A DNA stretch of 64,000 bases, taken from Antarcticibacterium sp. 1MA-6-2. Lineage in GTDB: Bacteria > Bacteroidota > Bacteroidia > Flavobacteriales > Flavobacteriaceae. Of the stretch, positions 5,801-59,286 are shown piece after piece. A program made the translations under genes and the position numbers. Every line of letters begins with the position of its first letter. Within the stretch, counting starts at the first letter, position 1. Where the stretch lies: positions 1,240,001 through 1,304,000 of the forward strand of contig NZ_CP091036.1 in the NCBI RefSeq assembly GCF_021535135.1. The letters run 5' to 3'. The notes beneath the pieces were generated by a model that was given only the letters and a program-made list of their open reading frames with translations, searched no databases and had not been told where the DNA came from.

Positions 5801-6349
5801 TTCCCTCACTAGTTATAGCAGTAGAAAGGGTATCAACACTAATTTTTGCGTCTCCGCCAATATGATATCGAAGTATTCCTTTATCTGAGGTTGCCACCCA
5901 TACCCTTCCCTCTTTATCTACTGCTAGATGTTGATTTGTTCTTGCTTCATCTCTGGCCAATAAAATTCCTTTGAATAGTGGTGTAAACCTGATTTCTTTT
6001 TCACCTGAATATTCGTGCAGGGTTTCTCAGAAACAACGAGACCTGAACCGGAAGAAACCCATAAATAGCCTTCTCCATCTTCAATTATTTGCCAAACTCC
6101 TAAATCCCTTAAACCTTTTTCTTTTCCATAAAGTTCCATTCCCGAACCATCATACCTCAACAATCCCGATGTGAAAACCGCAAACCAAATATAGCCCTGC
6201 CTGTCCTGGTAAATATGAGTTACAAGGGCAGAGGGTAGAGCGTTTACTTCACTATCACTTGTAAAGTGAGTAAGCGGAAGCTCCTGTGCTCCCGCTTTAC
6301 ACCACAATGATAATAAGAGAATAATTGGTAGATATAACCTCCAATTCAT
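2877..6349 (-). CDS. Two-component propeller sensor histidine kinase (frameshift near 6028)
   Basis: Read from 6349, this has a signal peptide (about residues 1-22, ending KAGAQ) and many propeller blades marked by G-x-[IL]-W repeats such as GYIWFA, GRVWVAT, GNIWIA, GHLWVGT and NKLWMGT. A Y_Y_Y-type domain, one membrane helix (coded near 3900-3960) and a coiled coil follow. The kinase core has the phosphoacceptor motif [12 protein letters not shown] (His codon 3615-3617), then N-box and G-boxes [10 protein letters not shown] and GTGLGLSLS. No receiver or HTH domain follows, so it must act through a separate regulator. The frame breaks at about 6026-6030; restoring it gives [17 protein letters not shown], joining the last complete blade. 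The scar fits a lost RCCGGY site. The ligand is probably periplasmic; such sensors often sense glycans. Confidence 0.85.
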
Positions 6350-6378
6350 TAATTATGGTATTTGTGAATACTCAGTTT

Positions 6379-7728
6379 CTAGACACCCCCGGAGCCATTA
6401 AAAGATAAAAGCATTTTAGTGTCACTAGATCTTAATGCTTTAATCTCTTCCACTCTGCGGGAAGTACTTGTTGTTTCTGCAGGACAAATTTCCAGATCGG
6501 TACAGGCTACGGCCTCAGAATAAATTAACAATGCTGTATTAAATCCAGAATTCAATTCATTGGTTTCAGGATTAAAAGCTCCTCGGTCACTCGCAATGTT
6601 TAATTCTGCAGTGAGAAGCTGCTGTAGAAATTCATCCAGCTCTGTTCTTATTGGCCTTGACAATATACTTAGGGCCATAGCCTCTTTATCATTACCAAAT
6701 TGAAATGGTTCTGGCAGTAACATGCCTTCAACTTCTATTAAAAGATTTCTGATATCTTCTTTTGAATATAAACTTCCTTTCTTTCCGGCATGTCTAATTT
6801 GTTGGACCCAGAATTTAGTAGGTTCAGTATTGACTCTAATTTTTCCATCATCCAGCTGTTGTATAATTTTGGAGGTATTAACTAAATAACCAAAGTTATA
6901 ATTAAGTCCATTTTCCTGTAAATTTTCAATAGTGAAGAACGTATTACCAGCAGCTGTATAATTTTCGTCGTTAAGAAGGTCTCCATTTACAGCGATTTTG
7001 TAGGTTCCCTGAAGAACCATAAAGGAATATGAACCGTTTGCTGAAGTGGGAACTGTAGCAATTAACTTGTCATTTTCATCGAATAGATCGATGAGAAAGG
7101 AAGGTATTCCAGATTCTGAAGCCTGTTTAAAACCATCGGAATTAGCATCAATATAAATACTACCATTTAGAGTAAATACCCCTTTGCAGGGACCCAAAAT
7201 CTCTTTAGTGTCAGATATACTTCCCCTTGTGGCTGTAACATTGATAACCCCTAAAGGTATATTTCCTCGCATAGTCATTGAATAATCCTGGCTGCCATCT
7301 TTAGAAACCGATTTGTTCCATTTAATAGCATCTTCATATAAATTGAAAGCCCTGTTGGGTGACTGGTTTTGTAGATTACCTGCACAACCAGGAATTTCAA
7401 GAGTAAAACTGTCTAACTGGGGAGTAGCTCCTCCTCCACTTACCTTGTACTTAAAAGTGGTTGTTACGTTATTTCCGGTTCCTGTTACTGTCCTGCCTAT
7501 GAAGTTTACTGTATAGGTATTAAGCATAACAGTTTCATATTTTTCGAGTTGAGCAACAAAATAGGCAGGTAAATGATCTTCCTGAAGTTTATTTGTTGGA
7601 AAAATTTCTTCAGCCGTGGATGTTCCTGAGTCGGCTTCAATTAGTTGAATAGATTCGTCTGCTTCACAACCTGCAAACATGAATCCCAATAACAGCACAG
7701 CTGTTACAAGAGAAATACATTGTTTCAT
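6379..7728 (-). CDS. Lipoprotein with SdrD B-like domain
   Basis: The start at 7728 (MKQCISLV) is preferred to the ATG eight codons upstream because it gives a clean lipoprotein signal, LLLGFMFAGC, with Cys about 18 as the lipidated residue. The roughly 450-residue product contains a Cna-B/SdrD-B-like segment around residues 190-265 (LNGSIYIDANSDG, then GIPSFLIDLFDENDK and GSYSFMVLQGTYKIAV). Such beta-sandwich modules act as spacers in surface proteins. The remainder is not recognised. It follows the sensor kinase in the same direction with a 29-bp gap, so the two may be co-transcribed and it could be a surface partner of that sensor; this is inference. Confidence 0.75.
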   Translation of the reverse strand: MKQCISLVTAVLLLGFMFAGCEADESIQLIEADSGTSTAEEIFPTNKLQEDHLPAYFVAQLEKYETVMLNTYTVNFIGRTVTGTGNNVTTTFKYKVSGGGATPQLDSFTLEIPGCAGNLQNQSPNRAFNLYEDAIKWNKSVSKDGSQDYSMTMRGNIPLGVINVTATRGSISDTKEILGPCKGVFTLNGSIYIDANSDGFKQASESGIPSFLIDLFDENDKLIATVPTSANGSYSFMVLQGTYKIAVNGDLLNDENYTAAGNTFFTIENLQENGLNYNFGYLVNTSKIIQQLDDGKIRVNTEPTKFWVQQIRHAGKKGSLYSKEDIRNLLIEVEGMLLPEPFQFGNDKEAMALSILSRPIRTELDEFLQQLLTAELNIASDRGAFNPETNELNSGFNTALLIYSEAVACTDLEICPAETTSTSRRVEEIKALRSSDTKMLLSFNGSGGV

Positions 7729-8246
7729 AATAATTAGATTAAAATGGTCCAAAAATGGTTATGGGAGGAGAAATTCTTTAACAAAATATTTGAATAAAGG
7801 AGCGGGATTTCCTCATCCTTTCTCAATGACCATTTAATCGTAGAGTATTAATATGGTTGGTACAGCAACAAAGTCAATAGGGCTAAGTCGTTATAAACTA
7901 GTATAATAACTTCGGGAAAGATATAAAATATTATTCTTATTTTTAAAAATATTTAACATAATAATTATACATTTGCTTATACTATGTAAGAAATATTTAA
8001 CATAATTCCCGGTATTGTAAGTGTTTTCTTATTAATATTATTTTTTCAAGGCGTTTTAACTAAAAATTATACAACATCTTACTTCCCCTTTAAAAGATGT
8101 TTTCATCAACTCCGGATTATTGGAGTTACTGTATCTGGTTAAGGAAAATTTATTGGTGCATTTACGAATGGAAGAATCCAGTAAATCACAAGCATACTTA
8201 AAATAAACTTCAGCATAAAATTTTAGGATTATTAAATACCTATAGG
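7729..8246. other. Intergenic region between divergent genes
   Basis: About 0.5 kb, very AT-rich, lying between the divergently read lipoprotein and soluble kinase genes. I see no convincing coding region. A TACATTTG matching the -7 hexamer pattern lies at 7968-7975 on the + strand, but there is no TTG at the right distance and it is 270 bp from the next start, so it is only a weak promoter candidate. Confidence 0.5.
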
Positions 8247-9578: not shown

Positions 9579-9589
9579 AAATCAGTGCC

Positions 9590-9967: not shown

Positions 9968-9977
9968 ATACAGGATT

Positions 9978-11059: not shown

Positions 11060-11948
11060 ATGAACTCTTCAAATAAGATACACTGGAAATCTATATTTTC
11101 TCTCTCTTCAATTATTTATACGATCCTGGGAGTTTTTTGCGCCCTCATCGCATTACAGGGGTTTATGATACCCAATCATCTTCTTGATGGCGGGGTAACT
11201 AAGTATTTCTATACTTTTAGAAGAAATCTTTCATATTCCTGTTAGTGTATCCTTAATAATATTTAATATCCCCTTCCTCTACCTGGGATATAAAAAAATT
11301 GGAAAAACTTTTAGTGTGAATGCCCTCCTGGCTGTATTTCTACTTTCAATTTTAATGAATTTCATCACCTTCCCTCAGGTTACCAGTGATAAAGTACTTA
11401 TTGCGGTTTTTGGCGGTTTATTTATTGGTCTTGGAATAGGATTGGTAATTAGAGGAGGCGGTGTAATTGACGGCTTAGAAATCATTGCTCATTACACAAA
11501 CAAGAAATTTGGCTTTTCCACAAGTGAAATTATTATGGCATTCAATTCTCTGCTTTTTATAGGTGCAGCCTTTGAATTTGGGATTGAGACTGCAATGTAT
11601 TCCATTTTGGTCTATTATACTGCCATGAAGACATCAGATTATATTGTTGACGGCTTCGAAGAATTTACTGCTTTATCTATCATTTCAAAAGATTTTGACA
11701 AGGTTAAGTCTCTTATCGTTAATGATTTTGGTAAAGCTATAACAGTATATAAAGGAGAAAGAGGTTATCTTCCAAACGCATTCAATGTTAAGCATGATTG
11801 TGATATTGTTATGACTATAGTAACACGGCTTGAAATTCACAGGATGAAAGTGGCTATAAAAGAAATAGATCCCCAGGCATTCTTCTATGTGCAAAGGATC
11901 AAAGAAGTTACAGGAGGAATAGGGAAACATAATAACCTGCAACATTAA
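11060..11948 (+). CDS. YitT family membrane protein (frameshift near 11202)
   Basis: A multi-helix membrane protein followed by a C-terminal DUF2179 domain (about the last 80 residues, KAITVYKGERGY through VQRIKEVTGG). The N-terminal part LLDGGVT runs into a frameshift at 11198-11204; the rest resumes as ISILLEEIFHIPVSVSLI. The family has Gly after GGVT, so ACCGGT is expected where ACTAAGT is written. With that correction the protein is about 295 residues, the normal family size. The function of YitT proteins is not established. The stop at 11948 directly abuts the HD-hydrolase start, so the two are probably co-transcribed. Confidence 0.85.
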
Positions 11949-12540
11949 ATGGAATTTTTTCAAAAGGTTTACGACAAGGTAATTACTGATTTGGAACAGG
12001 GCCTTCCCCCCTGGCTTACTTATCACAATGCAAATCACACCAGGTATGTATTACAAAAAGCAGAAGAAATTGCCAAAGAAGAAAATGTTTTTGGACAGGA
12101 TTTACTACTGGTAAAGGTTGCCGCGCTTTATCACGACACAGGATTCCTTAAGGATCGCCCGGATCACGAAAAGCTAAGCTGCGAAATTTTCATAAAAGAT
12201 TTTAAAGTTTCACATTTTTCTCCTGTTGAAAAAGAAAAGATCTGCAAAATAATTAAGGCTACCAAGGTGCCGCAAAATCCTAACACCCTGCTAGAAAAAA
12301 TTGTAGCAGATGCTGATCTTGAATACCTGGGAACCGAACTTTTTAATAGCTTTAGTAGAAATCTACACCGTGAAATCCTTCATTTTGAACCAGATATAAA
12401 AGACCGGGCCTGGGATGAATTACAGATAAATTTCCTTTCAAACCACAAGTACCACACTAAATTTTGCAAAAGTAAAAAGGAGCTAGGTAAAACAGAAAAA
12501 TCTGCTCGTAGTAAAAGAAAGGTTAATGGCACATAAATAA
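11949..12540 (+). CDS. HD-domain phosphohydrolase (frameshift near 12485)
   Basis: The start codon immediately follows the YitT stop. Metal ligands are visible as H in HNANHT, the HD pair in ALYHDTGFL, and D in VADADLEYLG. This set is typical of small soluble HD hydrolases acting on nucleotides or cyclic nucleotides. As written the frame ends at 12536 with an unlikely basic tail. If GCTAGGT at 12482-12488 is read as GCCGGT, the tail becomes KKEPVKQKNLLVVKERLM and ends at TAA 12538-12540, which resembles the family. Substrate unknown; proximity to the adenylate cyclase makes a cyclic-nucleotide link possible but unproven. Confidence 0.8.
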
Positions 12541-12699: not shown

Positions 12700-12714
12700 T
12701 GAAAATATGTAACT

Positions 12715-13194
12715 ATGAATAGTAAGTTCTACGATATCTCTGCCATTGACATAAAGGGTAAGGAAATTAATATGAGCGCATTTAAAGGAAAAATAGTATT
12801 AATTGTAAACACCGCCTCAAAGTGCGGTTTTACTCCTCAACTGGAGGGACTTGAAATGCTTAATAAGAAGTACACAAAGGATGGATTGGTTATTCATTGA
12901 TTTCCCTGTAATCAATTTGGTAAGCAGGAGCCCGGAGACGAGAAATCTATTGAAGAAGGGTGTATAATCAATTATGGAGTGAATTTTTTAATGTTTTCTA
13001 AAGTTGATGTGAATGGTGATCACGCGCATCCTATTTATAAATATTTGAAAGGAGAATTAGGTGGAATTTTTGGCAGTAGAATAAAGTGGAATTTCACTAA
13101 ATTTTTGATTAACCGGGAAGGAAAACCAGTAAAGAGATTTTCTCCCACAACAAAACCGGAGAGTCTTGAAAAATATATTCAGAAATTGTTATAG
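12715..13194 (+). CDS. Glutathione peroxidase (internal TGA at 12898)
   Basis: 159 codons with all GPx landmarks: [11 protein letters not shown] with catalytic Cys, [12 protein letters not shown], and WNFTKFLI near the C-terminus. It reduces peroxides in the cytoplasm, usually with thioredoxin in bacteria. The frame is interrupted by TGA at 12898-12900, two codons before FPCNQF, where the family has a Gly (LGFPCNQF). The frame is the same on both sides. The TGA is not the selenocysteine position, which is the Cys in SKCGF. The garbled CATTGA fits a miscalled GCCGGY, so the gene is probably intact in the cell. Confidence 0.87.
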
Positions 13195-21879: not shown

Positions 21880-22649
21880 CTACAATTTCTTTGCCTCTTC
21901 CCAGAATACATCCATTTCAGCCAAAGTCATTTCGCTTAACGGCTTGTTCTTTTCTTTGGCTTTGTTTTCCAGATATTTGAATCTCTTGATAAATTTCTTG
22001 TTGGTACGCTCCAGGGCGTTTTCAGGGTTTATATTTAAAAAACGGGCATAATTTATCAGCGAAAACAAAACGTCTCCAAATTCTGCTTCCATTTTATCCT
22101 GGTCCTGAACCTGAAGTTCATGATGCAGTTCATCCAGTTCCTCTTTCAGCTTTTCAAAAACCTGTTCCGGTTCTTCCCAGTCAAATCCTACCCCTGCCAC
22201 TTTATCCTGGATCCTGCTGGCCTTAACCAGGGCAGGTAGAGAAGCACTCCTTCCAGAACGCTTTTCTTCCCTTCCTTCAACTTCAATTTTTCCCAATTCT
22301 TCTTTACATCTTCTTCGTCGGCCACTTCTACATCACCATAGATATGAGGATGCCTGTCAATTAACTTATCGCAGATACTGTTGGCGACATCGGCTATATC
22401 AAAATCATTTGTTTCACTCCCAATTTTGGCGTAGAATACCAGGTGTAATAAAATATCACCCAGTTCCTTTTTGATCTCTTCCCTGTCTTTTTCAAGAATG
22501 GCATCTCCCAGTTCATAAACCTCTTCTATCGTAAGATGCCTCAAGCTTTCCATTGTTTGCTTCCTGTCCCACGGGCATTGCTCCCGCAGTTCATCCATAA
22601 TGGTTAGTAATCTGTCAAAGGCAAGTAATTGATCTTTTCTGGAATTCAT
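21880..22649 (-). CDS. mazG: Nucleoside triphosphate pyrophosphohydrolase MazG (frameshift near 22244)
   Basis: Start at 22649 (MNSRKDQL). Two MazG repeats: CPWDRKQTMESL with EEVYELGDAI and KKELGDILLHLVFYA in the first, and GFDWEEPEQVFEKLKEELDEL with EAEFGDVLFSLINYA in the second. The EExxE and ExxD metal sites are intact in both. The frame shifts at about 22241-22247, between VLEG and SLPALVKA. The family has VP-x-SLPALVKA there, so about four bases are missing and GCCGGT is expected. MazG hydrolyses NTPs to NMP and pyrophosphate. Confidence 0.9.
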
Positions 22650-26906: not shown

Positions 26907-27995
26907 ATGAAGATACTTGTAATTCAGCAAAAAATGATTGGGGACGTACTTACGTCCTCAATTTTATTTGAAGCTCTGAAAAAAGAGTATCCTAAAGCTG
27001 AACTGCATTATCTTATATACAGACATACCCTCGCTGTTGTAGAAAATAATCCTTTTATAGACAAAATTATTCCGTTTGATAAACAAACTGAGAAACCTCT
27101 TAGGCTTTATACTTTTCTTAAGGGAATTAAGCGGGAAAAATATGATGTCATCATTGATGTTTATTCGAAAATAGGAACGGCAATCATTTCTTCTTCTTCC
27201 GGAGCAAAAATTACTGTTTCCTACGACAAATGGTACACCCGTAAATTTTATACCCATACCGTCTCTCGAAATACCAAAGCGGAAACTGCGGCTTAAGCCC
27301 TTGCTATTGAGAATCGATTAAGATTACTTTCTCCAATTGTAGAAAATATTCCAAAGCTCATTAAACCGAAGATTTATCTTACAGAAGCAGAAATTGAGCA
27401 GGCAAAGGATACGCTCCGAAATGCAGGAATATCATCAGAAAAACTGCTGCTAATGGTTTCTGTTCTTGGAAGTTCTACTGAAAAAACATATCCTCACAAA
27501 TACCTGGCAACTCTTCTGAATCAAATAGTTGAGGAAACAGAGGCTCAGCTTCTTTTCAATTATATTCCTAATCAGCTGGAGGATGCGCAACAGATTTTTA
27601 GATACTGTAAATCTAAGACACAGGAACACATATTCCTAAATGTTTTTGGTAAGAGCCTCAGGGAATTTATGGGTTTAACTTCACAATGCGATGCATTATT
27701 TGGCAACGAAGGCGGTGCTGTAAACATGGCTAAAGCTCTGGATGTTCCTAGCTTTGCTATTTTTTCGCCAGCAGTTAATAAGGAGGACTGGTCTCTTTTT
27801 GAAAGTGAAGAGAACGTTGCGGTACATCTAAAAGATTTTCAGCCAGACCTATTTCCTGAGGAATCAAAAAGCACCCTCAAAAAAAGATCGGCTGAACTTT
27901 ATTTAGAGTTTACACCGGAATTTATTTCAGAGAAACTGTCAACATTTTTGAAGATTCTTCCGAAGGAGAAAAAACCAGAAGGAAAAACCACCTAG
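26907..27995 (+). CDS. Glycosyltransferase family 9 (heptosyltransferase-like), stop at 27294
   Basis: Start at 26907 (MKILVIQQKMIGDVL); the ATG at 26898 lies in the palindrome. Typical GT9 parts: the N-terminal QQKMIGDVLTSS, ALKKEYPKAELHYL, then GNEGGAVNMAKALDVP with the nucleotide-sugar site. In-frame TAA at 27294-27296 interrupts KAETAA and LAIENRLRLLSP; the frame is unchanged across it. The family has Gly before LAIENR, and GCTTAAGCC fits a miscalled GCCGGC. It likely adds heptose or a related sugar to the lipopolysaccharide core. First gene of the glycan cluster. Confidence 0.85.
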
Positions 27996-28832: not shown

Positions 28833-29952
28833 ATGAAAGTTCTACATATTTCAACTACTATAGAATGGAGGGGCGGCGACAAACAGTTGCTTACCACTTA
28901 TGAAGTTTTAAAAAATTTTAAGGATATTCAACATGTCGTTCTTTGTCCAAAACATTCCGTTCTTTCCGAAAAATGTAAAAGTATAGGGATAGAGTATTTT
29001 ACCGCCTCCAGGAAATCAAAATTTTCTTTATCATTTTTAAAAGAAATTATAAAAATAACACGCCAGGAAGAAATTGATGTAATTCACGTGCACGATTCTA
29101 TTGCACTTAGCCTTTCATCCCTGGCAATAAAATTTTTACCGGATGTTAGCCTTATATACTCCCGAAAACGGAATAACCGAATAAAGAATAATTACTTTAA
29201 AAGAGTTAAATACAATAACTCCCGCATTTCAAATATCTTATGTGTTTCACAAGCCGTTAAAGATGTCCTTGTGCTTAGGTTCTTAATGATCCTGAAAAAG
29301 CAAAAGTCATTTATGATGGAATTGATGTAGAGAATCTTTCCCGTAACAAACCCCAGGGCATCCTGAGAAGTGAATATCATATTGACCCAAACACCATCTT
29401 AATTGGAAATGTAGCCAAGTCTCACAAAACAAAAAGACCTTTTTACATTTTTGGATGCGGCCAAAATAATCCTGAGTAACAGTGACAAAAACATTAAATT
29501 TTTAATAATCGGTGAGGGTCCCATGGAGAATGAAATAAAGGATTATTGTAAAAATTTAGATCTGACAAAAGATGTGATATTCACTAGGTTTTAGGAATGA
29601 CGTGCATAAAGTACTTCCGGAATTTGATCTTTTTCTTATTTCTTCGGACACTGAAGGATTACCACTATCTGTCCTGGAAGCATTTGCCTGTAAAATACCA
29701 GTGGTCGCCACAGCGGCAGGTGGAACAGGAGAAGCAGTAAAGAACAGGGAAACAGGAATGCTGTCTCCGGTTAAAGATGCGGCCAAACTTGCTGAAAATG
29801 CCCTTGAGGTAATTAACGATCCATCCCTTAAAGAACTTCTTATAGAAAGCGCTTATCATATGGTTTCCACATATTTTACACTGGACGTAATGCAGCGGGA
29901 GTATTATTCCTTTTATAAAAACCTTAAAGAAATACGCGAGCAAAAAATCTAA
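28833..29952 (+). CDS. Glycosyltransferase family 4 (three frameshifts)
   Basis: Begins MKVLHISTTIEWRGGDKQ, a GT-B fold; the GT4 signature SSDTEGLPLSVLEAFACKIP with the catalytic Glu is in the C-terminal part. Frames change at 29273-29280, 29418-29423 and 29583-29589. Corrected, the middle reads VLNDPEKAKVIYDGIDVENL, then TKQKDLFTFLDAAKIIL and VIFTGFRNDVHKVLPEFD. Each break fits a garbled RCCGGY (for example ACTAGGT for ACCGGT where the family has FTGFR). About 370 residues in total, normal for GT4. Role: sugar transfer in surface glycan assembly. Confidence 0.82.
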
Positions 29953-36039: not shown

Positions 36040-37058
36040 ATGATGAAAGATAATAAAAAGGTTGTCTACTGGCTTTTTACAGGTTGTTTTCTAATTTTTA
36101 TAATGGTCATTGTAGGCGGTATTACCCGGCTCACACAATCGGGACTCTCCATTTCAGAATATAAACTCATTAGCGGTACGATTCCTCCTTTAAATGAACA
36201 GGAATGGGTGGAAGCTTTTGAATTGTACAAACAATATCCCGAATATCAAAAACTTCATTATCATTTTGAACTTGAAGATTTTAAGCAAATTTATTTTTGG
36301 GAATGGCTGCATAGGGTTATAGGGAGGTTAATAGGGATCGTTTTTATTATTCCGTTTATTTATTTCCTTCTTACAAAACAGCTTGCTAAATCCACGATCA
36401 GGAAATCACTGATCCTTCTTACCCTGGGAGCTTTTCAGGGATTCTTAGGCTGGTATATGGTGAAAAGTGGCCTGGTAGATATGCCCGCAGTAAGCCACTA
36501 CAGGCTGGCAGCTCACTTGACTACTGCATTTCTAACTTTTGCATACACCTATTGGGTAGCTCTGGATCTAATTTATCCTGAAAGGAAAGTAATAGAAAAG
36601 AGTTTTAGAAATCTTGTAAGAATAGGAATGGTAATCCTGCTGCTTCAGATTATCTGGGGAGCATTTGTTGCTATAGTCTCGATGCTTACTGGATCCACAA
36701 TACCTGGCCTACGATGAACGATGGGAAATTTATTCATGAAACTGTTTATATTGAACAAAATCCAGTCTGGAGGAATTTTGTAGAAGGAAAAAGCGGAGTT
36801 CAGTTTGTTCACAGGTATTTGGCATATTTTGTAGTTGGAATAATTGGTTTGATCTGGTACAGGTCCCGCGAACTAGTTCTTACATCTCTGCAACAAAAAG
36901 CTGTAAATTCCCTGTTGATTCTGGTCTTTGTACAATTCCTGCTTGGGGTCCTTACATTAGTATACGCCGTTCCCGTATGGTTAGGGGTTGCTCACCAGGT
37001 AGGCGCATTTTTCCTGCTTACAGGAATGACTTTTACTTTACACAGATTCACCAGATAA
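36040..37058 (+). CDS. ctaA: COX15/CtaA heme A synthase (frameshift near 36674)
   Basis: Eight-helix membrane enzyme. First half: GGITRLTQSGLSI, heme-ligand His in WLHRVIGRL and SHYRLAAHL. Second half: NTWPTMNDGKFIH, QFVHRYLAYFVVG and GVAHQVGAFFLL. The frame shifts in GAFVA-GLDA: written GCTATAGT at 36670-36677 where GCCGGT is expected. Corrected length about 339 residues. Converts heme O to heme A for cytochrome oxidase, so a real loss would affect respiration; that supports the artefact reading. Confidence 0.9.
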
Positions 37059-38872: not shown

Positions 38873-39933
38873 CTAGCCTTTCTTCGTATTTACATCTTCA
38901 TAATTCCTCTTTACAAATTCAAGAGCCGTACGAAGGATTTGCCCCATCGTTCTGGCTCTTTTAAATTTCATGTCTGTAGTGAATTGATAAAGATCTTTTC
39001 GCAGTTGCCGCACATTCTCCTCGGTTGAGACGTGATCGTTGATCATACACCTGATTAATTCTTTAAACCGGGTACTGGCATTGATCATCCTTTTTGCCAA
39101 AAGAGATCGTTCCTCTTTTCGATATTGTTCAATAGAATTCTCCTGAAGCCTGTCCGTCACCAATTGCACCATCTTAAAATTCTCTTTGAAGAACTGGGGC
39201 TAAGTATACCTTCAAATTGCCTTCATAACACTGCTGGTCAAAATCTATTGCACGAATGGTATAATCTACATGATCAAAATCATGGGTAGGAATTACTACG
39301 TAATTATAAGAACGCATATCGCCTAAAAGACGCACCATACAGCGTTCATTAAATTTTACAAATTGTTTGGCAATTTGGGTTTTAGCCCTGTCATCACAAA
39401 GCGGAAGTTCATTTTCTATAAATACATCTCCGGGAATTCCCGCGATATGTTCCTCGATTAGCGTATCCTTATAAACCAAAAAATTGATTCGGTGAGGAGA
39501 AAGTATATGTTCCACCTCCAGACCGTAAATTCTGGAAGCATCAGCCGTTTTCACGTAAAAGTAAGTAAAACTGTCATTGAGTATATTCCTGACTTTTATA
39601 CGGAAGGGTTTCGAGTTTCCGAAGGTGCAGTAATCTATAGCATCAATATTCAGGTAATCTAGGGCATCATCACTCCCGTCTGAATGTAGAATGGTATAAA
39701 CGTGTTTTAAGGACTCGTCTATTTCTACTCTTTCAGAATCAGAATAATAGCAGCGCACCCATAATGTATCTTCATCATGCTTTACTATAAACTACTATTG
39801 AACCTGAAAACCTAAGAAGATCTTCGTAAAAAACCGGGATTTTAGTGTTGCGATTATATTTTGCCAGGTATGTGTTAAATCTTTCATTAATGGGAAAAGA
39901 AGGCTTTTTCCTGGACATTAATCTTTCTTGCAT
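38873..39933 (-). CDS. Conserved hypothetical protein (two frameshifts)
   Basis: Read from ATG 39933: MQERLMSRKKPSFPINERF and YLAKYNRNTKIPVFYEDLLR, then a frameshift at about 39773-39783 into DEDTLWVRCYYSDSERVEID. A second shift at 39199-39205 leads into PQFFKENFKMVQLVTDRL and the C-terminal KDLYQFTTDMKFKRARTMG. The second scar, ACTTAGC, fits ACCGGC. Joined, the protein is about 352 residues, soluble, without signal peptide. I believe it is a known but uncharacterised Flavobacteriia family. Without joining, it looks like two small unrelated proteins, which I consider wrong. Confidence 0.75.
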
Positions 39934-41899: not shown

Positions 41900-43905
41900 A
41901 TGAGATTTACAATAAAGTCAGATTACAAACCAACCGGAGATCAGCCTGGAGCCATCCGGCAGCTGGTTGACGGAATTAATAAAAACGATCAATATCAAAC
42001 TCTTCTGGGGGTTACAGGTTCAGGAAAAACCTTTACCGTTGCCAATGTAGTTGAAACGGTACAGAAGCCGACTTTGGTCCTGGCTCACAACAAAACTTTG
42101 GCTGCCCAGCTTTATTCAGAATTTAAGCAGTTCTTTCCGGATAATGCGATAGAATATTTTGTGAGTTACTACGATTATTATCAGCCGGAAGCCTTTATTC
42201 CTTCTTCGGGAACATATATTGAGAAAGATCTTTCGATTAATGAGGAAATAGAAAAACTGCGATTGAGTACTACCTCTTCCCTTTTAAGCGGAAGACGGGA
42301 TGTGCTTGTAGTAGCTTCTGTTTCCTGTTTATATGGTATTGGTAACCCGGTGGAATTTCAGAAGAACGTGGTCTCTATAGAAAGAGATATGCGTATCTCC
42401 CGAACAAAGTTTCTTCACAGACTGGTGCAGAGTTTATATTCAAGAACAGAAGCCGACTTTAATCACGGGAACTTCAGAATAAAAGGAGACACGGTTGATG
42501 TCTTCCCCAGCTACGCCGACAATGCATTCAGAATACATTTCTTCGGAGATGATATTGAAGAAATTGAGGCTTTTGATCCACAAACGAATGAAATTGTTGA
42601 AAAATACGACCGCCTGAATATTTATCCTGCCAATATGTTTGTAACATCTCCTGATGTTCTTAACGGAGCAATAAGAGAAATTCAGGATGATCTTGTTAAG
42701 CAGGTGGATTACTTCCAGGACATTGGGAAACATCTGGAGGCAAAGCGACTTGATGAACGAACGAATTTTGATCTGGAGATGATTCGGGAATTAGGTTACT
42801 GTTCAGGAATTGAAAACTATTCCCGTTACCTCGACGGCCGACTTCCGGGAACAAGACCTTTCTGTCTTTTAGATTATTTTCCGAATGATTATTTAATGGT
42901 AGTAGATGAAAGTCACGTGACCATTCCACAAGTTCATGCAATGTATGGCGGAGACAGATCTCGAAAAGAGACACTGGTAGATTATGGTTTTCGTTTACCT
43001 AGCAGCTATGGATAACTTAGCCACTCAAATTTGAAGAATTTGAAGCTCTTCAAAATCAGGTGATCTATGTAAGTGCTACTCCTGCAGATTATGAACTGCA
43101 AAAAACTGAGGGAATCTACGTAGAACAGGTTATAAGGCCTACAGGGCTTTTGGATCCTGTAATAGAAATCAGGCCAAGTTTGAATCAGATTGATGATCTA
43201 ATTGAAGAAATTCAAATAAGGGCAGAAAAGGATCAGCGGGTCCTGGTAACAACCTTAACCAAACGAATGGCAGAGGAATTAACTAAGTATCTTACAAGAA
43301 TAGACGTGAGATGTAGGTACATTCATTCTGATGTTGACACTTTGGAGAGGGTTGAAATTATGAATGATTTGAGACGGGGAATTTTTGACGTACTAATTGG
43401 AGTAAACCTTTTAAGAGAAGGACTCGACCTTCCTGAAGTCTCACTTGTTGCCATTTTGGATGCAGACAAAGAAGGTTTCTTAAGGAGTAACCGTTCACTT
43501 ACACAAACAATTGGTAGAGCGGCAAGACACCTTGAGGGAAAAGCAATAATGTATGCTGATAAAATTACAGACAGTATGCAGAAGACTATTGACGAAACGG
43601 AATACAGGAGGGAGAAACAGATCGCTTATAACACGAAAAACAATATTACCCCCACTGCCCTCGTCAAAGCTTTTAATGAAACACTTATTCGCAAAAAAGA
43701 AGAAGCCTATAAAATTGAAAGTGCACCAACCTTAAAAGCAGCGGAAAAGGAAACGGCTTATTTCAGCAAAAATCAACTTGAAAAAAGGATCAGGGATAAG
43801 AGAAAGGAAATGGAAGCTGCAGCGAAAGATCTTGACTTTATGACTGCCGCGCGCTTAAGAGATGAGATAAAGATGCTTCAGGAAAAAACGAAATCTATGG
43901 CCTGA
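41900..43905 (+). CDS. uvrB: Excinuclease ABC subunit UvrB (two frameshifts near 43000-43020)
   Basis: Walker A GVTGSGKT (38-45), damage-verifying beta-hairpin [12 protein letters not shown] (about 93-104), [10 protein letters not shown], then helicase half with [27 protein letters not shown] and QTIGRAARH, and the C-terminal UVR motif [14 protein letters not shown]. The frame is lost in [22 protein letters not shown] at 42997-43003 and ACTTAGC at 43015-43021 each carry one extra base. Both fit ACCGGC. Corrected length about 667 residues, normal. Nucleotide excision repair. Confidence 0.95.
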
Positions 43906-45947: not shown

Positions 45948-47260
45948 ATGAAAAACATCTATTTCAAAGTTGTCAATATTCTCAAGGGTGTAAGAAATAA
46001 AATAGCATTTTATCCTACTGCTTTAGCCATATTTGGAATTTCCTTTGCTTTTTTTATGTTATACCTGGAAAGAACAGGTATATCGCAATATTTTTTTGAA
46101 AAATTACCTGTGCTAATGGTAGACAATGGAGATACTGCACTGGCAATATTAGGCTCTCTCATTACTAGTCTTATTTCAATGATGGTTTTCAGCTTTTCAA
46201 TGGTAATGTTACTATTGAGCCAGGCTTCCAATAATTATTCCCCACGCCTCCTGCCGGGCTTAATATCTAATAAAGTTCACCAAATCGTGCTGGGGATATT
46301 TCTGGCAACTATTCTGTACCTCATTTTTGTATTGTTCTCAATTGAACCTGCAGAAGAAAAATACACTATTCCCGGATTCTCTGTCCTTGTAGGAATTCTT
46401 TTTACTGTTGCCTGTATTTATTCCTTTATCTATTTCATTCATAATATTTCTCAGAATATCCAGATTAATAATATCCTGGAGCAGCGTTACAGGGAAGCCA
46501 GGAAGAGATTGAAGCAGTGGATAAAGGAGGAAGAGGAAATTAATGAAGAGTTTCCGGCAGATGAGGAGTGGTACGAGTATTACGCGACGAACAGTGGTTA
46601 TTTCCAACATATTTCCTATTCTAACTTAATGGTAATATGTACTGAAAATAAAACCAGACTATCAATCTTACCTGTACGGGGATTTTTTGTCCTGGAAGAT
46701 TTACCACTTTTCAGGTCAGAAAAAGAGTTGGATGAAAAAACTTTGAGTTCGATCCTTTCTAACTTGCATTTCTCCCGGGGGAGCTTGTAGAGGATAATTA
46801 TTTATATGCATTTAAACAAATTACTGAGATAATAGTAAAAGCAATGTCTCCCGGTATTAACGATCCAGGTACAGCAATAAACGGAATAGATTATCTTACA
46901 GAATTATTTTCTCTGAGATTACAGCATAAGGAGAATGACCTTATATGTAAAGAGGGAAAAGCATTAATTAAAATAAAAACTCTAAGCTTTGATGAGTTAC
47001 TATACAATATAATGGCTTCTATAAGGACATACTGCAAACACGATATTATTCTTGTCCAGAAGTTATTAGTTATGTTTAAGTACCTTAAAGCTCGCGGGAA
47101 TAAAGATAATCGCTACCTCGACAGCATTGAAAAAGAAGTTCATACGCTTCTTATTGATGTAAAAAATTCTGTTTCTAATTCAAGGGACATTGAAGCAATC
47201 TTTAAGTTAGCCAGAAGTTATGGTTTTGAAACCAATCTTCAACTCACCAGGAAACTATAA
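45948..47260 (+). CDS. DUF2254 membrane protein (frameshift near 46778)
   Basis: N-terminal half with four membrane helices (about 18-40, 62-85, 105-125, 140-165), including GDTALAILGSLITSLISMMV. The C-terminal half has MSPGINDPGTAINGIDYL, the most conserved DUF2254 motif. The frame changes in a C3G5 run at 46774-46781: FSR-GELVEDNYLYAFKQI is restored by one more G. This is one of two breaks that do not fit RCCGGY well and may be a plain homopolymer error. Corrected length about 437. Function unknown. Confidence 0.82.
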
Positions 47261-47327: not shown

Positions 47328-49152
47328 CTACTTCCTGGTATTCACCCACTCCTGCACGTTCTCTTCCAGAATATTTAATGGTACTGCCCCATTTAGAAGA
47401 ACTACATCATGAAATTCCCTAAGATCGAATTCTTCACCAAGTTCGGTCTTGGCAAACTCCCTTAGCTCCAGAATTTTTATCATTCCAATTTTATATGCAG
47501 TAGCCTGTCCCGGAAACACTATATGCCTTTCCACCATTTTTACTGCATCGCTTTCAGCATTTGGCGTATTCTTTTTGTAATAGTCTATTCCTTCTTCACG
47601 AGTCCACTTTTTGGCATGAATACCCGTGTCTACCACCAGCCTTACAGCTCTCCAAAGCTCCATTGCGAGCCGCCCAAAATCTGAATAAGGATCTTCATAA
47701 AATAATCCTATTTCCTTTGGAAGTAGTTCACTGTACAATCCCCAGCCTTCAATATAGGCTGTATAAAAAGAAAACTTTCTGAAATCCGGAATACTGTCAA
47801 GTTCCTGTGCGATCGCAATTTGCATGTGATGCCCTGGTATTCCTTCATGATAAGCCAAAGCTTCCAGTTGATATTTTGGCATTGCAGACATATCATACAA
47901 ATTCGCATAGTAAGTACCGGGCCTGGAACCGTCTAAAGCGGGTGGCTGATAGAAAGCTTTACCCGCACTTCGTTCTCGAAACGGTTCTACGGCCTTTACA
48001 ACTATGTCTGCTTCAGGTAAAGTCTGGAATAAATCATCGAGGCGTCCTTTCATTGTATTTATGACTTCCGTTGCTTCAGCAAGGTAAGTTTGTTTCCCTT
48101 CCGGAGTATTTTCATAATAAAATTGGGGATCAGTTCTCAGGAATTCAAAAAAGTCCTGAAGTGTTCCGTCAAATCCCACCGTATCCATAATTTTCTCCAT
48201 TTCTCCATGAATTCGGGAAACTTCATTCAACCCAATTTCATGAATTTCTTCAGCAGTAAGATCTGTTGTAGTTGTCCTTTTTAAAGCATTATTATAAAAA
48301 GCATCTCCTTTAGGGAATTTCCAGGCACCATGATCGGTAGTAGCCCGTTGTTGCTGATCTTCCAGTTTGGCTATTAATTTTTCATAAGCAGGCTTTACTG
48401 ATGTTAAAAGGGCCTGCTCTGCACTTACTAACAATTCTCTTTCCACCTCATCTTCCAGATCCAAAGCTTCCACTTTTTCTTTAAAATCATGAAGAAGGGT
48501 ACTGGCTTCCTTAGAAGTCTCAAAAGGTTTCCCTTTCAGAATATTTTTGGAGGCATCAACCGTTCTCTCAAATACAAAGGCTGGTGGCACTATTCCATTT
48601 TGCTCCCTTAGGTTCATACCTTCGATAATTTCATCAAACACTCTCGGTAGATCATTAAGACGCGAAATATAATTCTTAGCATCGGCTACAGAATCAATTC
48701 GGTGCATATTAATAAGAAAAGCTAGGTAGGCTGGTATGCTGCCCCCTCATTTGATTTATAGGATAATCATAAAACCTGTATTTATAGTCTTCGATCCTAT
48801 TTTCAAGATCCTGTCTGTACAGCCTGTAACTAAGATTAGCCTCCTCGTCCAGAGCTTCTTCGTCTACCTCATCTTTGAGGTAACTTAAGCGTCTTTTATA
48901 CTTTTCGAGATCTTCAGCAAGTTTAATATTCGAGAAATCATCAAATTTTCCATAATCGGTTTTAAGCCCCAACTGCGTTTGAAGCATAGGAGAATCTGCC
49001 AAATCTTCCTGAAATTGGTCGTCCAGATATTGATTAAATTCTAATGACTGCCTTTCAATCTCTTCTTCGGAAAAATTTCCCTCCGTTTTATCTTTACACG
49101 ACATAAAGCCTGAAAAAATGAAGAGGATAACTGCTACTTTAAGTCTTTTCAT
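47328..49152 (-). CDS. DUF885 family metallopeptidase, lipoprotein (frameshift near 48723)
   Basis: Start at 49152 (MKRLKVAVIL); lipobox IFSGFMSC. The large C-terminal part has the zinc motif YHEGIPGHHMQIAIA (HExxH-like H-E-G-I-P-G-H-H) and the later EGWGLYSELLPKE, the third ligand region. The frame shifts at 48721-48727 (coding ACCTAGC); ACCGGC gives LPAFLINMHRIDSVADA. Corrected length about 608, normal for DUF885. Predicted periplasmic or outer-membrane carboxypeptidase. It directly follows the CocE-type hydrolase, so both may degrade peptides. Confidence 0.85.
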
Positions 49153-49158: not shown

Positions 49159-51017
49159 TTATTCTAAAACAGAAAATTTAATAAATGAATCTCCGTATAC
49201 TTTGTGAGTCTGCTTCTTAAAATCTTCTTCTTTTGCCTCAAAAATGTTAGGGACATAAATTTGCGGATTAAGATCAATCAGAGGAAACCAGGTACTCTGA
49301 ACCTGTACCTGAAGCTTATGTCCCTTTTTAAAAGTATGATTCACGTCCTGTAAATTAAACGTGACATCAGTCTTCTTATTGGCTTCAAAAGGTTCTGGTT
49401 TTTCAAAACTGTTTCTAAAGCGGCCCCTTATAACTTCACTCCTAACCATCATATGATAGTTGCTCATTCGCAGATGGTCCTGCATTTCTTCAGAATCCTC
49501 AGCATCAGGAGGATATACATCTATTATTTTCACGATCCAGTCTGCCGCAGTACCCGTGGTAGCAACCTTTAAATGTGCTTCTATAGCACTTAGCAAGAGT
49601 CATATCTTTATCCAAAACCGGAGTCTCATACACAAGCACATCAGGACGTCGCGCGGCAAAGCGTTGATCATCTGTCATGTATTTTCTTGGTGTAAACACA
49701 GCCTTTATATCTTCTGAATACGGCACCTACTTTTTAGGATCACTCACAAAAGAAACTTCTGCCTTTGAAGGTATACTGGTCAATTTCTCATCTTCCCCTA
49801 AATAAAATCTTTTACTCCTTACACCTTCCGGAGGCCATGATTCAAAAGATTTCCAGGTCATAAGACTTAGTGTCGTACATATGAGCTTCAGGTAGAGAAA
49901 CAGTTTTATCTCCGCTGCCTTTTAGAAAGTGATTAAAAAACACGGTCTCTGTTTCCCTCTGATAAGCTTCAGAAATATCATCTCCAAAATAGATGTTTCC
50001 TACAGCCTGTCTTTTACTGGTCCTGGCCCAGTCTCCATGGCTCCAGGGCCCCATTACCAGGATATTGAAATTGTCGCTGTTCTTTTCAATTGTCTTATAA
50101 GTTTGAAAAGGACCGTAAAAATCTTCAGCATCAAACAATCCGCCTACGGTCATAACGGTAAGTTCTATATCATCCAAATGCTGAATGATTCCCCTTTTTT
50201 GCCAAAATTCATCGTAGTTTGGATGCTCCTTAAGCTGTTGCCAGAAGACATTGTCTTCCTTGTAATATTTGTTCAGATTACTTAGAGGGCCTGCATCCAG
50301 AAAAAACTGATATTGATCCTGTGTTCCAAGTTCAGGTAGTTCGTACCAGGCCTCGGCTGTAGGTTCTGTCTTCTCGTAACCAAATAAGGCAGTCGCACGC
50401 CAGTAACTTAAAAGATAAGCTCCGTTATGGTGAAAGTCATCAAAAAAGAAATCCCCGATAGGTGCCTGCGGGGAGACCGCTTTAAGGGCAGGGTGCCGAC
50501 TTAAAAGAGAATAGGTTGAGTAAAATCCCGGATATGAAATTCCCCATACTCCTACTCTTCCATTATTGTTGCTAATATTTTTTAGAAGCCATTCAATAGT
50601 ATCATAAGTATCAGTTGCCTCATCTATGTTTTTATTTCCGTTTTTCTTCGGAAGAAATGGCCTCATATTGTCATAAGTACCTTCACTCATCCACCTTCCC
50701 CGCACATCCTGGTAAACAATAATATTACCTTCCTTCATTAAATAATCATTGGGTCCAATTTTAGACCGAAATTGATCTTCCCCGTACGGCCGGGAGCTGT
50801 ACGGGGTCCTTTGCATTAAAATGGGATATTCCTGTGAGGTGTCCTTAGGTGAATAGATAGTGGTATGAAGTTTTACCCCATCCCTCATAGTTATAGTAAC
50901 CTCCTGCTTAGTATAATTTTCTTTTACCTGGTACTCTATAGTATCCTGTGCCAAGCCTGAGACAACTAAAAACAGGCTCAGGATTAGGCTGAATTGGATT
51001 TTCACAAATTTCATCAA
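49159..51017 (-). CDS. CocE/NonD family alpha-amino-acid ester hydrolase or X-Pro peptidase (three breaks)
   Basis: Signal peptide (LILSLFLVVSGLAQ). S15 peptidase fold: nucleophile Ser in VWGISYPGFYS, Asp in GGLFDAEDFYGP, His in GPWSHGDWAR, and a C-terminal jelly roll ending KVYGDSFIKFSVLE. Breaks: 49854-49860 (shift), TAG at 49727-49729 in GTAGGT, and 49585-49594 (shift, GCTAAGT). Corrections to RCCGGY give KSFESWPPEG, PVPYSEDIKA and TLAGAIEAHL. Corrected length about 618. It hydrolyses esters or Pro-peptides in the periplasm; exact substrate unknown. Operon with DUF885. Confidence 0.85.
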
Positions 51018-51066: not shown

Positions 51067-53071
51067 TTAGTTTATTGCAGCTGCTCCAAATTTATCAAGC
51101 CCCTGTTCCAGCCAGCCAAGAAATTCTTTTTCATCGGGTGTATAACCTACAGGGGGATTTAAAAGATTTACTTCCGGATCTAAAAGAACGTAGAAAGGTT
51201 GTGAATTGTTTTTAAAATTGACAGTTTGAAATGTGGCCCATTTATCGCCGATCGTCTTTATTTTCTTAATGCCACCTTTTTCCCGCAGATAATTAAACTG
51301 CTCCTCCTCTGGAAGATCCTCTTTGTCGTCGACATATAGAGAGATAAGGACATAGTCATTCTTTATAACATCGTAAACCTCAGGATGACTCCAAACCTGT
51401 TCTTCCATTTTTCGGCAATTAACACAGGCCCAGCTAAGTAAAATCCAGTAAAATAGGTTTATTCTCTTCACGGGCAACAGCCAGTCCTTCCTCCCAATCC
51501 TTATATGCTTTTAATCCCAACGGGCCTTCCGTCGGTTTATCGTAAACGCTATAAAATAAAGGTGGAGGAAAACCACTCAGTAATTTCAGATTTGCAAAAC
51601 CAGTGTTGGTAAGGCCGGGGAAGAGATAGAGAACAAAAATGAAGGTGAGGGTCCCAAAAGCAAACCGCCCTTTACTTATTCTTTTCTTAGGCCCATCGTG
51701 TGGAAATCTAATTATTCCGAAGAGATATAACATTAATCCAATAGCGATAATGATCCATATTCCTATGAAGATCTCCCTTTTAAGGATACCCCAGTGTTCT
51801 ACAAGATCTGCGTTAGAAAGGAATTTAAAGGCCAGTGCCAGTTCGATAAAACCTAAAACAACCTTTACAGTATTAAGCCATCCTCCACTTTTAGGAAGAG
51901 AATTTAGCCAGTTTGGGAAAAGGGCAAAAAGAGCAAAAGGAAGAGCAAGGGCGAGACCGAAACCTCCCATTCCAAAAGATAATTGGGTTGCACCACCATC
52001 GGTAGTTAAAGAACCACCCAGTAAAGAACCTAAAATTGGTCCGGTACAGGAAAATGAAACCAGGGCAAGGGTTAAAGCCATAAAAAATATTCCGACTACA
52101 CCACCAAAACTCGAAGCTTTATCATCCATCCTGCTACTCCACGAGCTTGGAAGAGTTATTTCATAATAACCGAAGAAAGAGAAAGCAAAGGCTATAAAAA
52201 TTACGAAGAACACGACGTTAAGCGTCACGTTAGTTGAAATGTTATTAAGGATCTCCGGTGCAATACTGTCCAGTAAATGAAACGGAACGCTCAATAAAAG
52301 GTATATCAGGAAAATAAACAGCCCGTACAATATAGCGTTGACTAAACCTTTTTTTCTTGTTCTGGCACCTTTGGTAAAAAAAGATACTGTTAGTGGGATC
52401 ATTGGAAAAACGCAGGGAGTAAGTAACGCGATAAGTCCTCCAAAGAAGCCCAAAAGAAAAATAGTAATATAGCCGTTTCCTTCTTCCTCTTCCGGCTGGT
52501 ATTCCTCCCAACCCTGAATTTGAATATTTAAAGCCTCTGTTTGTCCTCGGTCACGGTCGGTTAATTCTACATCTGTATAACCTTGGGTAGCTTTATTCTG
52601 ATTTACAGAAATTTGAAAAGGCACCGTATCCGGAGGCAAACATTGCGCATCATCGCATACACTAAAGTATACCTCTACTTCAATTTTCGCTTCAGGATCT
52701 AAAATTCTAATATTCTGACTAAAAACTGCTTCATCTTCAAAATAAATAACATCCATTTCAAAGACCTCATCAAAAACTGCAGGAACGTTTGGTTCCTCCA
52801 TTTCACCTATAAGTTCTATGCCTTCAGAATTTATAAAAGTAAAGGTAGTAGGAATGGGACCGCCCTCTTCTACGTGCTGAGAGTAAAGGTGCCAGCCTTT
52901 CTCCAAAGTGGCAGTTAAGAAAAGAGTGGCGATACTGTCATTTTGTTTTTCTATCCTTGCATCCCACTCAATGGGGTCTGCAATTTGAGATTCGCTAGAG
53001 GAACTGAAAACCTGTGCCTGTACAGTAAAAAAAGATATTATAAGAAAGGCCAGGGTCCAAAGATATTTCAT
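51067..53071 (-). CDS. dsbD: Thiol:disulfide interchange protein DsbD (frameshift near 51435)
   Basis: Start at 53071 (MKYLWTLAFLIISFF), a signal peptide; it overlaps the tilS stop as ATGA. N-terminal alpha domain with the Cys pair CDDAQC, eight-helix core with PCVFPMIPLTVSFF and SFSCTGPILGSL, and C-terminal thioredoxin domain with C-V-N-C (ACVNCRKMEEQ). The frame breaks at 51431-51439: LLDFT-GWACVNC is restored if ACTTAGC is ACCGGC. It carries electrons from thioredoxin to the periplasm. Corrected length about 668. Confidence 0.92.
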
Positions 53072-56555: not shown

Positions 56556-56626
56556 AATTATTAATTCTGTTCAAAATTACCTAAAAATATAGAAGCGCCC
56601 TCTTAAAGTTGTTTTAAAGATAGATA

Positions 56627-56661
56627 TGAGACTTGAGATGTGAGACATGAGATTTGAGATT
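56627..56661. repeat. Heptanucleotide repeat, TGAGANN type
   Basis: Five exact-register units: TGAGACT, TGAGATG, TGAGACA, TGAGATT, TGAGATT. Confidence 0.85.
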
Positions 56662-56832
56662 GAGGTATGTCGGGTTTTAGAACTTGAAGTTCTGCTGCAA
56701 GATATTAAGTTGCATCCTAAATTTCCCGCAGAGCCCGCAGATCAAAAATGGTGATTTTCGCAGATCGTCCCGGGAAAGAGAAAATCATCCTCTTTTCCTG
56801 TCCAATCTTCAGTCACCTCTCTAAAGGCGCTC

Positions 56833-56867
56833 TGACTTTCCTCTCTTCACTTTCCTCTCTCCTCTAC
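56833..56867. repeat. Heptanucleotide repeat, CCTCTCT/TCACTTT type
   Basis: Five units: TGACTTT, CCTCTCT, TCACTTT, CCTCTCT, CCTCTAC. Resembles the second block inside pabB. Confidence 0.75.
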
Positions 56868-56906
56868 TACTGCACCACGATACTTCTCTCTCCACAATAA
56901 TTCCCT

Positions 56907-56914
56907 TACCTTTG
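56907..56914 (+). promoter_or_regulatory. -7 promoter element (TACCTTTG)
   Basis: Matches TAnnTTTG, 22 bp before the GTG start of the helicase. No clear -33 element; the upstream DNA is repeat. Confidence 0.55.
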
Positions 56915-56936
56915 CAAACAGATTAATATTCATACT

Positions 56937-58283: not shown

Positions 58284-58286
58284 AAT

Positions 58287-59160
58287 ATGCATCAGTTACA
58301 GAATGAATTTTTAAGTATTGGCGTTAAACCGATTGGTGCAGAACTGTGCAGCATAATTGATCGTGAAACGCAAAAAGAATATATCTGGCAGGCGAATCCT
58401 GAAATCTGGGCGAACCACGCCCCAATACTTTTCCCAATTATTGGAGAATTAAAAAACGGTTCTTATTCTTTTGACGGCAAAGAATACAGCCTACCCCGAC
58501 ACGGTTTCGTAAGGCATAATGATAAAATTATCCTGAAGGAGAAGACCAACGAGAGCCTGATTTTCTTTCGTGAATATTCCGAAGAAACATTAAAAGTTTA
58601 TCCCTTTAAGTTTCAACTGGAGATCCAATTTACTTTATTTAAAAAGCAACTGGAGATTTCTCACCGTGTGACCAATGTGGATGACAAATACATTTATTTC
58701 TCCCTGGGAGGACATCCTGCTTTTAACGTTCCGTTAAATGAGGGAGAAGTTTATGAGGATCATTTTCTCCAGTTCGATAAAAAATTGGACTTAAAGACTC
58801 ACGTGCTGAATGAAGAAGGACTAATAACGGCCAGGACTACTCCGGTAACTGAAAATGATGATAAGATTCATTTACACAAGGACCTTTTTAACAAGGATGC
58901 ACTGGTTTTTAAAGATATCCAGTCTAAGAAGGTGGTTTTAAAGAGTAAAAGATCTGGGCCTGTATTAACTGTGGAGTATGATGATTTTAAAAATTTAGGT
59001 CTTTGGGCAAACCCTAGCTGCGCCATATGTTTGCATTGAACCCTGGCTGGGAATAGCCGATTCTGAAGATGCTACAGGTAATATAAAAACAAAAGAAGGC
59101 ATTATCGAAATAATGCCTTCTGAGAAATTTGAAGCGTCTTACACCATAACTATAGAGTAA
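58287..59160 (+). CDS. Aldose 1-epimerase family protein (frameshift near 59015)
   Basis: Galactose-mutarotase-like fold: GAELCSIIDRETQKEYIW, PILFPIIGELKNGSYSF, LPRHGFVRHND and SLGGHPAFNVPL with the catalytic His; the C-terminal Glu region is VCIEPWLGIAD. As written the frame ends at 59039 after WANPSCAICLH. If CCCTAGC at 59011-59017 is read as CCGGC with one base less, it continues as APYVCIEPWLGIADSED to TAA 59158-59160, as in the family. Corrected length about 290. Interconverts sugar anomers. Confidence 0.88.
59095..59120. repeat. Perfect hairpin in the 3' end of the epimerase
   Basis: GAAGGCATTAT (59095-59105), loop CGAA, ATAATGCCTTC (59110-59120). It codes KEGIIEIMPSE in the corrected frame. 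No T-run follows, so not a standard terminator. Confidence 0.7.
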
Positions 59161-59177
59161 GATCTGCCGATTATAGA

Positions 59178-59286
59178 TTAACTTCTGTTCTTTTTCTTCG
59201 CTTCTTTCGCAGCGCGTTTTTCCTTTAAAGTAAGAACTAAGTTCCTTTTTAACCGAATTCTTTGAAGGGGATTTTTCTTTTGCCAT
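59178..59286 (-). CDS. Small basic protein, 35 aa (frameshift near 59238)
   Basis: ATG at 59286: MAKEKSPSKNSVKKE. The frame then runs into an implausible stretch. If coding ACTTAGT (59236-59242) is ACCGGT, it continues PVLTLKEKRAAKEAKKKNRS to TAA at 59178-59180. That gives a Lys/Ala-rich 35-residue protein of a type common in Flavobacteriia as a hypothetical small basic protein. Found because the scar rule predicted it; convergent with the epimerase. Confidence 0.7.

Follow-up and report, generated by a model that had tools for sequence, protein, structure and literature searches.

Systematic consensus errors at methylated motifs are an already known kind of artefact of nanopore sequencing. 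In the case of the 5-methylcytosine (m5C, 5mC) motif of Dcm, CCWGG, errors at the motif are the commonest ones in consensus sequences of native DNA if the basecaller has not been trained on the motif, with homopolymers in second place, and in a 2019 Klebsiella benchmark about 70% of the consensus errors made with the default models of the then-current Oxford Nanopore Technologies (ONT) basecallers fell at Dcm sites (Wick et al. 2019, PMC6591954). In Listeria, modifications that were absent from the training data caused thousands of systematic errors (Chiou et al. 2023, PMC10687267). Of the 208 substitutions reported for R10 assemblies of meningococci, 199 were C-to-T or G-to-A, most of the C/G to T/A changes being located at sites called 5mC (PMC12506013). 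Here, a similar pattern is described for Antarcticibacterium sp. 1MA-6-2. The analysed window of 64,000 nucleotides (bases 1,240,001-1,304,000 of a single 4,383,004-base contig) lacks the hexamer RCCGGY, and the original prediction, made from the letters of the window, had listed 23 gene breaks, most of them assigned to garbled forms of this motif.

The present case differs from the Dcm errors in its motif, in the many +1 and +2 errors and in the near-total loss in a deposited genome rather than in a benchmark (PMC6591954). The Listeria errors were chiefly mismatches and were demonstrated by amplified DNA and hybrid assemblies (PMC10687267), whereas here insertions occur too and are known from the assembly alone. 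The 208 substitutions of the meningococcal assemblies are far below the approximately 3,000 sites lost here, and the terms RCCGGY, CCGG and motif are absent from that text (PMC12506013).

The closest described enzymes are those acting on RCCGGY. The NmeDI system of Neisseria meningitidis, often carried by ST-11 meningococci, includes a Vsr protein, a C5 methyltransferase and a restriction endonuclease with the target RCCGGY; its m5C activity was seen by MspJI cleavage (PMC7973814), and the endonuclease cuts on both sides of the target (PMC4081073). The genome studied here carries the same three components, but the host is a flavobacterium and the likeness is read from the genes. VchM of Vibrio cholerae, to which the present enzyme is likened by description, modifies almost every RCCGGY site, placing m5C at its first C; it is an orphan methyltransferase, unlike the vsr-methyltransferase-restriction enzyme (vsr-M-R) cluster of the present genome (PMC8559950).

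We consider it very probable that the breaks are consensus miscalls at m5C-modified RCCGGY in an unpolished nanopore assembly of native DNA and not mutations. The loss of the motif is near-total, it is misspelled in 16S, rpoB, uvrB and other genes, and the enzyme cluster is present; the sequencing platform, the methyl mark and the specificity of the enzyme are what we infer from these observations. A methylation footprint behind the breaks is probably real. The C5-cytosine methyltransferase of the NmeDI-like system probably methylates RCCGGY on both strands in the cell, and nanopores most likely served to sequence the native DNA. The changed signal would then have led to the same miscall in most reads, giving wrong consensus words with either a +1 or +2 insertion accompanied by C-to-T or G-to-A, or a substitution that keeps the length, for example RCAGGY. 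A repair with accurate short reads was probably not made.

No RCCGGY was found among the 180 CCGG of the window. The other three flank classes had 87, 49 and 44 members and together predict 25 RCCGGY, while a first-order Markov model predicted 16. The densities determined in the corresponding region of five same-genus relatives, 0.34-0.81 per kb, resulted in an expectation of 22-52 sites. In a 464-kb sample, consisting of the window and 20 further stretches of 20 kb, 7 of 1256 CCGG were RCCGGY, compared with 319 expected by the flank rule and 304 by the relatives. The remaining NCCGGN words were kept, so the loss is concentrated on RCCGGY, as a modification-mediated error requires. By extrapolation, approximately 3,000 sites are expected chromosome-wide and 62 are written: 42 ACCGGT, 19 ACCGGC/GCCGGT and 1 GCCGGC. 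For the sample, the Markov model predicts 37 ACCGGT to 25 GCCGGC, and the skew among the survivors suggests that correct calling depends on the sequence context. The original observation was confirmed and proved stronger than first put. Four of the surviving ACCGGC are located in identical 46-base contexts at chromosome 2401079-2403505 (stretch L185, 5079-7505), which constitute a local repeat. Five surviving RCCGGY are clustered inside approximately 11 kb at chromosome 875518-886817 (stretch L186).

The ribosomal RNA genes allow the written bases to be compared with strongly conserved positions. The genome has three 16S rRNA genes, all with apparent false changes at two sites:

Chromosome 2409890-2411407: 16S rRNA gene
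Chromosome 4263767-4265287: 16S rRNA gene
Chromosome 294068-295588: 16S rRNA gene

Site A is ACCGGC in each of the 17 copies aligned from eight relatives, and ACTGAC, ACTAAGC and ACTAAGC in the three own copies. At site B, GCCGGT was found in 7 of the 17 relatives' copies and GCCAGT in 10, and the spelling in the own copies is GCAGGT, GCTTAGGT and GCTAAGGT. The stretch after site B is GCAAACCGT in the seven copies with GCCGGT and GCAAACTGT in the ten with GCCAGT; since the own copies have GCAAACCGT, GCCGGT is expected there. The own copies are 99.6-99.8% identical to each other over the ungapped columns of the 16S alignment; compared with genomes of the same genus, the identity of the aligned stretch is 90-96%. 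Only these two sites were used because the spacers of rRNA operons vary naturally between copies; 23S was left out, the own genome showing plain substitutions where some relatives have RCCGGY. Ribosomal RNA needs no translation, yet 16S is garbled, which indicates that the words are not biology.

In the case of rpoB, which is an essential gene, the own genome has two pieces with TAG, split at ACTTAGC. The gene is intact in 7/7 relatives (1274 residues), and the break falls on a Thr-Gly common to all seven. The sequences written for rpoB and 16S are at odds with those that the cell needs. The proposed miscalling of the consensus at RCCGGY is well supported by the near-erased motif, the deviating 16S spelling, the broken rpoB and the presence of the vsr-M-R cluster.

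One C5-cytosine methyltransferase was detected in the genome with PF00145 (164 bits). The protein of 394 residues shows PPCPDFS, ENVKG, QDRER and GNGVP stretches. It is encoded on the minus strand in the vsr-M-R cluster (chromosome approximately 3,943,900-3,946,934), where the order on that strand is tyrosine integrase, Vsr, methyltransferase and a restriction enzyme of 359 residues, the genes of the latter two overlapping. The vsr, methyltransferase and restriction enzyme genes, open reading frames of 139, 394 and 359 residues (stretch L001), thus lie together on one strand as in an NmeDI-type system. Vsr was identified by PF03852/TIGR00632 and the restriction enzyme by the type II model REase_II of PADLOC. 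A homologue of the methyltransferase, P0174 (66% identity), is listed in its source as modification methylase NmeDIP, and a homologue of the restriction enzyme, P0035 (78% identity), comes from the same organism. Among the best 120 matches listed in the homologue searches, the names R.NmeDI and Neisseria were not found. For the restriction enzyme (L001 381-1460), a search at E ≤ 0.001 gave 2,081 homologues, and the best 120 of the 2,081 carry PF27126.

A search for a Cfr10I/BsrFI-like methyltransferase had been recommended. A C5 methyltransferase was indeed present, but NmeDI is the closer model for the system: the restriction enzyme had no PDB sequence match by phmmer up to E 1, and the PDB contains the solved enzymes of the Cfr10I/Bse634I/NgoMIV group. 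A low-confidence model of the restriction enzyme (predicted local distance difference test, pLDDT, 68; predicted template modelling score, pTM, 0.45) gave no PDB fold match at E ≤ 0.001, with BspD6I among the weak matches.

The vsr-M-R system looks acquired, since 14 of 15 other genomes of the genus, some of them incomplete, had no match to the methyltransferase at E 1e-20; one has a 39% identical protein. No methyltransferase match was found in the five relatives used for the motif density. The cluster is flanked by recombination genes, a serine recombinase on one side and a tyrosine integrase on the other (chromosome 3940885-3947493; L019 885-7493), and a location on a mobile island is suggested.

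The same artefact could be caused by another chemistry, 4mC (N4-methylcytosine) or a less usual mark at RCCGGY, which we regard as unlikely. The errors are near-total and often add bases, whereas the m5C-linked errors of meningococci were mostly substitutions (PMC12506013). However, one homologue of the sole C5 methyltransferase found bears the name of an m5C system for RCCGGY. In addition, PF01555, a large family with N4-cytosine and N6-adenine methyltransferases, had no match in the genome, the other N4-methylase families not having been searched; 5mC is therefore favoured over 4mC.

The proposed breaks of the window were compared with open frames and proteins of relatives by a frame-aware translated alignment covering 35.9 kb of the window. 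A first scan resulted in 158 clusters of frame breaks, many of them from open frames opposite the gene strand, and the restriction to the dominant strand left 30. Of these, 13 were counted and 17 dropped (1-3 loci each), among them 22779, 23252 and 24499 with one spanning locus each. The 13 clusters comprise 14 breaks, the uvrB pair forming one cluster; they were backed by all spanning relatives, with 46774 backed by 13/14, and all had been listed in the original prediction. Six further breaks were supported outside the translated comparison, 22241 and 59236 by DNA alignment, 11198, 12895 and 29583 by Pfam domains found in halves, and 6026 weakly by repeats. Independent support was consequently obtained for 20 of the 23 proposed breaks; 12482, 29273 and 29418 are outside the 20. 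All 16 garbled words that had been spelled out were found at their places and on their strands, that at 59011 being ACCCTAGC. The breaks are listed below; fractions of relatives refer to those in which the break is seen, and fitting residues to relatives with RCCGGY-compatible residues.

6026..6033, minus strand: two-component regulator gene (propeller repeats, histidine kinase); fit to the motif by length only; weak, Reg_prop repeats in each of two open pieces that overlap (2880-6026, 5927-6352)
11198..11204, plus strand: YitT-family gene, word ACTAAGT present; PF02588 positions 2-31 before (19.4 bits, below the curated cut-off) and 33-204 after
12482..12488, plus strand: end of an HD-domain gene, proposed break, word GCTAGGT present; HD domain matched upstream only
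12895..12900, plus strand: glutathione peroxidase gene, in-frame stop; fit to the motif by length only; PF00255 positions 1-56 before and 59-108 after
22241..22248, minus strand: MazG-domain gene, short form with 4 bases fewer than relatives; two relatives align GCCGGC / ACCGGT; MazG matched in both overlapping open pieces
27291..27299, plus strand: in-frame stop, GCTTAAGCC; stop in the alignments of 5/5 relatives, fitting residues 4/5
29273..29280, plus strand: glycosyltransferase gene, proposed break, word GCTTAGGT present
29418..29425, plus strand: glycosyltransferase gene, proposed break; in the next piece, Glycos_transf_1 is matched from profile position 24 onwards
29583..29589, plus strand: glycosyltransferase gene, break at ACTAGGT; PF00534 positions 24-79 before and 78-171 after
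34901..34908, plus strand: cca/poly(A) polymerase gene, ACCTAGGT; 16/16 relatives; PF01743 positions 2-80 before and 86-126 after; fitting residues only 3/16
36670..36677, plus strand: gene named ctaA in the original prediction, GCTATAGT; 9/9 relatives, fitting residues 9/9
39199..39205, minus strand: ACTTAGC; 17/17 relatives, DNA of two relatives GCCGGT on the plus strand, fitting residues 12/17
39773..39785, minus strand: break; 21/21 relatives, relative G011 has GCCGGT at 39779, fitting residues 3/21
42997..43003, plus strand: first break of uvrB, ACCTAGC; 3/5 relatives ACCGGC with one base fewer, fitting residues 85/85
43015..43021, plus strand: second break of uvrB, ACTTAGC; frame change across the pair in 85/85 loci, one relative ACCGGC with one base fewer, fitting residues 85/85
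46774..46784, plus strand: break at a CCCGGGGG run, not RCCGGY; 13/14 relatives, fitting residues 0/14
48721..48727, minus strand: ACCTAGC; 4/4 relatives, fitting residues 4/4
49588..49594, minus strand: GCTAAGT; 5/5 relatives, fitting residues 2/5
49725..49730, minus strand: GTAGGT, in-frame stop without length change; stop in 5/5 relatives, DNA of three relatives ACCGGT on the plus strand
49854..49871, minus strand: break holding ACTAAGT of the minus strand; 5/5 relatives, fitting residues 3/5
51433..51439, minus strand: ACTTAGC; 5/5 relatives, DNA of two relatives GCCGGT on the plus strand, Thr-Gly 5/5
59011..59018, plus strand: ACCCTAGC; break at 59015-59079 in 5/5 relatives, fitting residues only 1/5
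59236..59242, minus strand: ACTTAGT; two relatives ACCGGT / ACCGGC on the plus strand, with one base fewer

Two judgements on single breaks had to be corrected in part. The breaks at 39773 and 46774 had both been called poor fits, which is true of 46774 but not of 39773, where RCCGGY is present in a relative. The break at 49854 was confirmed, but it had been fitted by length only and actually contains a garbled word. The break at the CCCGGGGG run resembles a homopolymer-length error, the second typical error of nanopore sequencing. The uvrB piece has 92% protein identity to two genomes of Gramella, a marine genus.

One objection considered in the original prediction was that relatives might lack RCCGGY at these codons. 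Residues compatible with RCCGGY, in phase and within 2 residues of the break, were found in at least one relative at 13/14 breaks compared with 27% of 400 random positions, and in half or more of the relatives at 9/14 breaks compared with 6%. When the distance was narrowed to 1 residue, the corresponding values were 10/14 and 6/14, with 17% and 3% at random positions. Several of the 14 tested positions were placed at the proposed words inside the cluster, which favours the RCCGGY reading somewhat. This scripted test with controls superseded a looser version, whose 13/14 was judged by eye. In the DNA of relatives, RCCGGY was located near the breaks in 28/281 rows compared with 40/2960 at random; 170 of the 281 rows belong to the uvrB pair, and only 8/14 breaks have a relative with RCCGGY.

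In most garbled words the outer R C ... G Y is kept and the centre is altered. With complements pooled, the 464-kb sample contained 10 RCCTAGGY compared with 0 found in the relatives (446 kb of sequence), 40 RCCTAAGY compared with 14 and 150 RCTAAGY compared with 101 expected. The excess of RCAGGY, 980 over 853 expected, is modest and less telling as the word is common. RCAGGY is a same-length form and is also present in one 16S copy; the visible breaks are therefore probably only a part of the errors. The comparison with relatives worked better than the flank-independence enrichment of R-core-Y words within the genome, which was swamped by other word biases and left only the CCGG loss clear, but it still lists words without a clear link to the motif.

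Several results weigh against miscalling at m5C-modified RCCGGY. The inserted-base forms cover only part of the approximately 300 sites missing in the 464 kb, the remainder being same-length changes or true avoidance. Out-of-frame length changes at the relatives' RCCGGY were observed in 15/93 rows and 9/74 places; by places this is not distinctive, the control motifs RGCGCY (6/47 places, 9/60 rows) and RAATTY (33/304 places, 33/594 rows) being similar. The control YCCGGR gave a lower share, 5/117. The DNA length-change test is coarse and weak at 74% identity. As for the enzyme, the target RCCGGY is deduced from the name of one homologue and the footprint in the genome. The second-best PADLOC model for the methyltransferase is DruM of Druantia, and the nearest solved structure is M.HaeIII, covering residues 12-198 only. 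The target of M.HaeIII is GGCC; between R and Y flanks, GGCC was counted 180 times in the 464 kb compared with 123 expected and is thus not depleted. In meningococci, the published R10 errors are mostly substitutions (PMC12506013), single-molecule real-time (SMRT) sequencing found no RCCGGY methylation, and the target of M.NmeDI is also given as RCCGGB (PMC7973814).

Real avoidance, in which the organism's own restriction-modification system purged RCCGGY by selection and the breaks arose separately, is very improbable. A restriction enzyme does adjoin the methyltransferase, and many places with RCCGGY in a relative differ here by plain substitutions. However, avoidance explains neither the bases inserted in rpoB, uvrB, cca and 16S nor the three spellings across three 16S copies, and only 62 sites are left compared with the approximately 3,000 extrapolated. 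True gene decay or a mutator targeting RCCGGY, such as Vsr or restriction damage, has a negligible probability: Vsr and restriction enzyme genes are present and C-to-T and G-to-A are among the changes, but the changes affect the essential rpoB as well as conserved positions of 16S, in a genome that is otherwise a single 4.38-Mb contig with a completeness score of 97%. Programmed or tolerated frameshifting or stop readthrough at the garbled words, to which the many +1 breaks with TAG or TAA might point, is practically dismissed by the identical words in rRNA genes, the several word lengths and the lack of the insertion in the relatives' genes.

If the words are miscalls at modified RCCGGY, the errors would be inherited by annotation, typing and tree building from the assembly. 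With approximately 3,000 RCCGGY expected and 62 written, the genome probably carries many false pseudogenes, and the apparent false 16S changes at two sites would mislead identification and trees. The combination of motif loss and garbled words could be scanned for in other assemblies, flagging them and revealing the targets of methyltransferases without reads. Tentatively, an unpolished assembly may even be readable as a methylome: the motif loss and the garbled words would reveal the target of the restriction-modification system, which for the flavobacterial vsr-M-R family seen here would be RCCGGY, and unmethylated DNA might be marked by a part of the 62 survivors.

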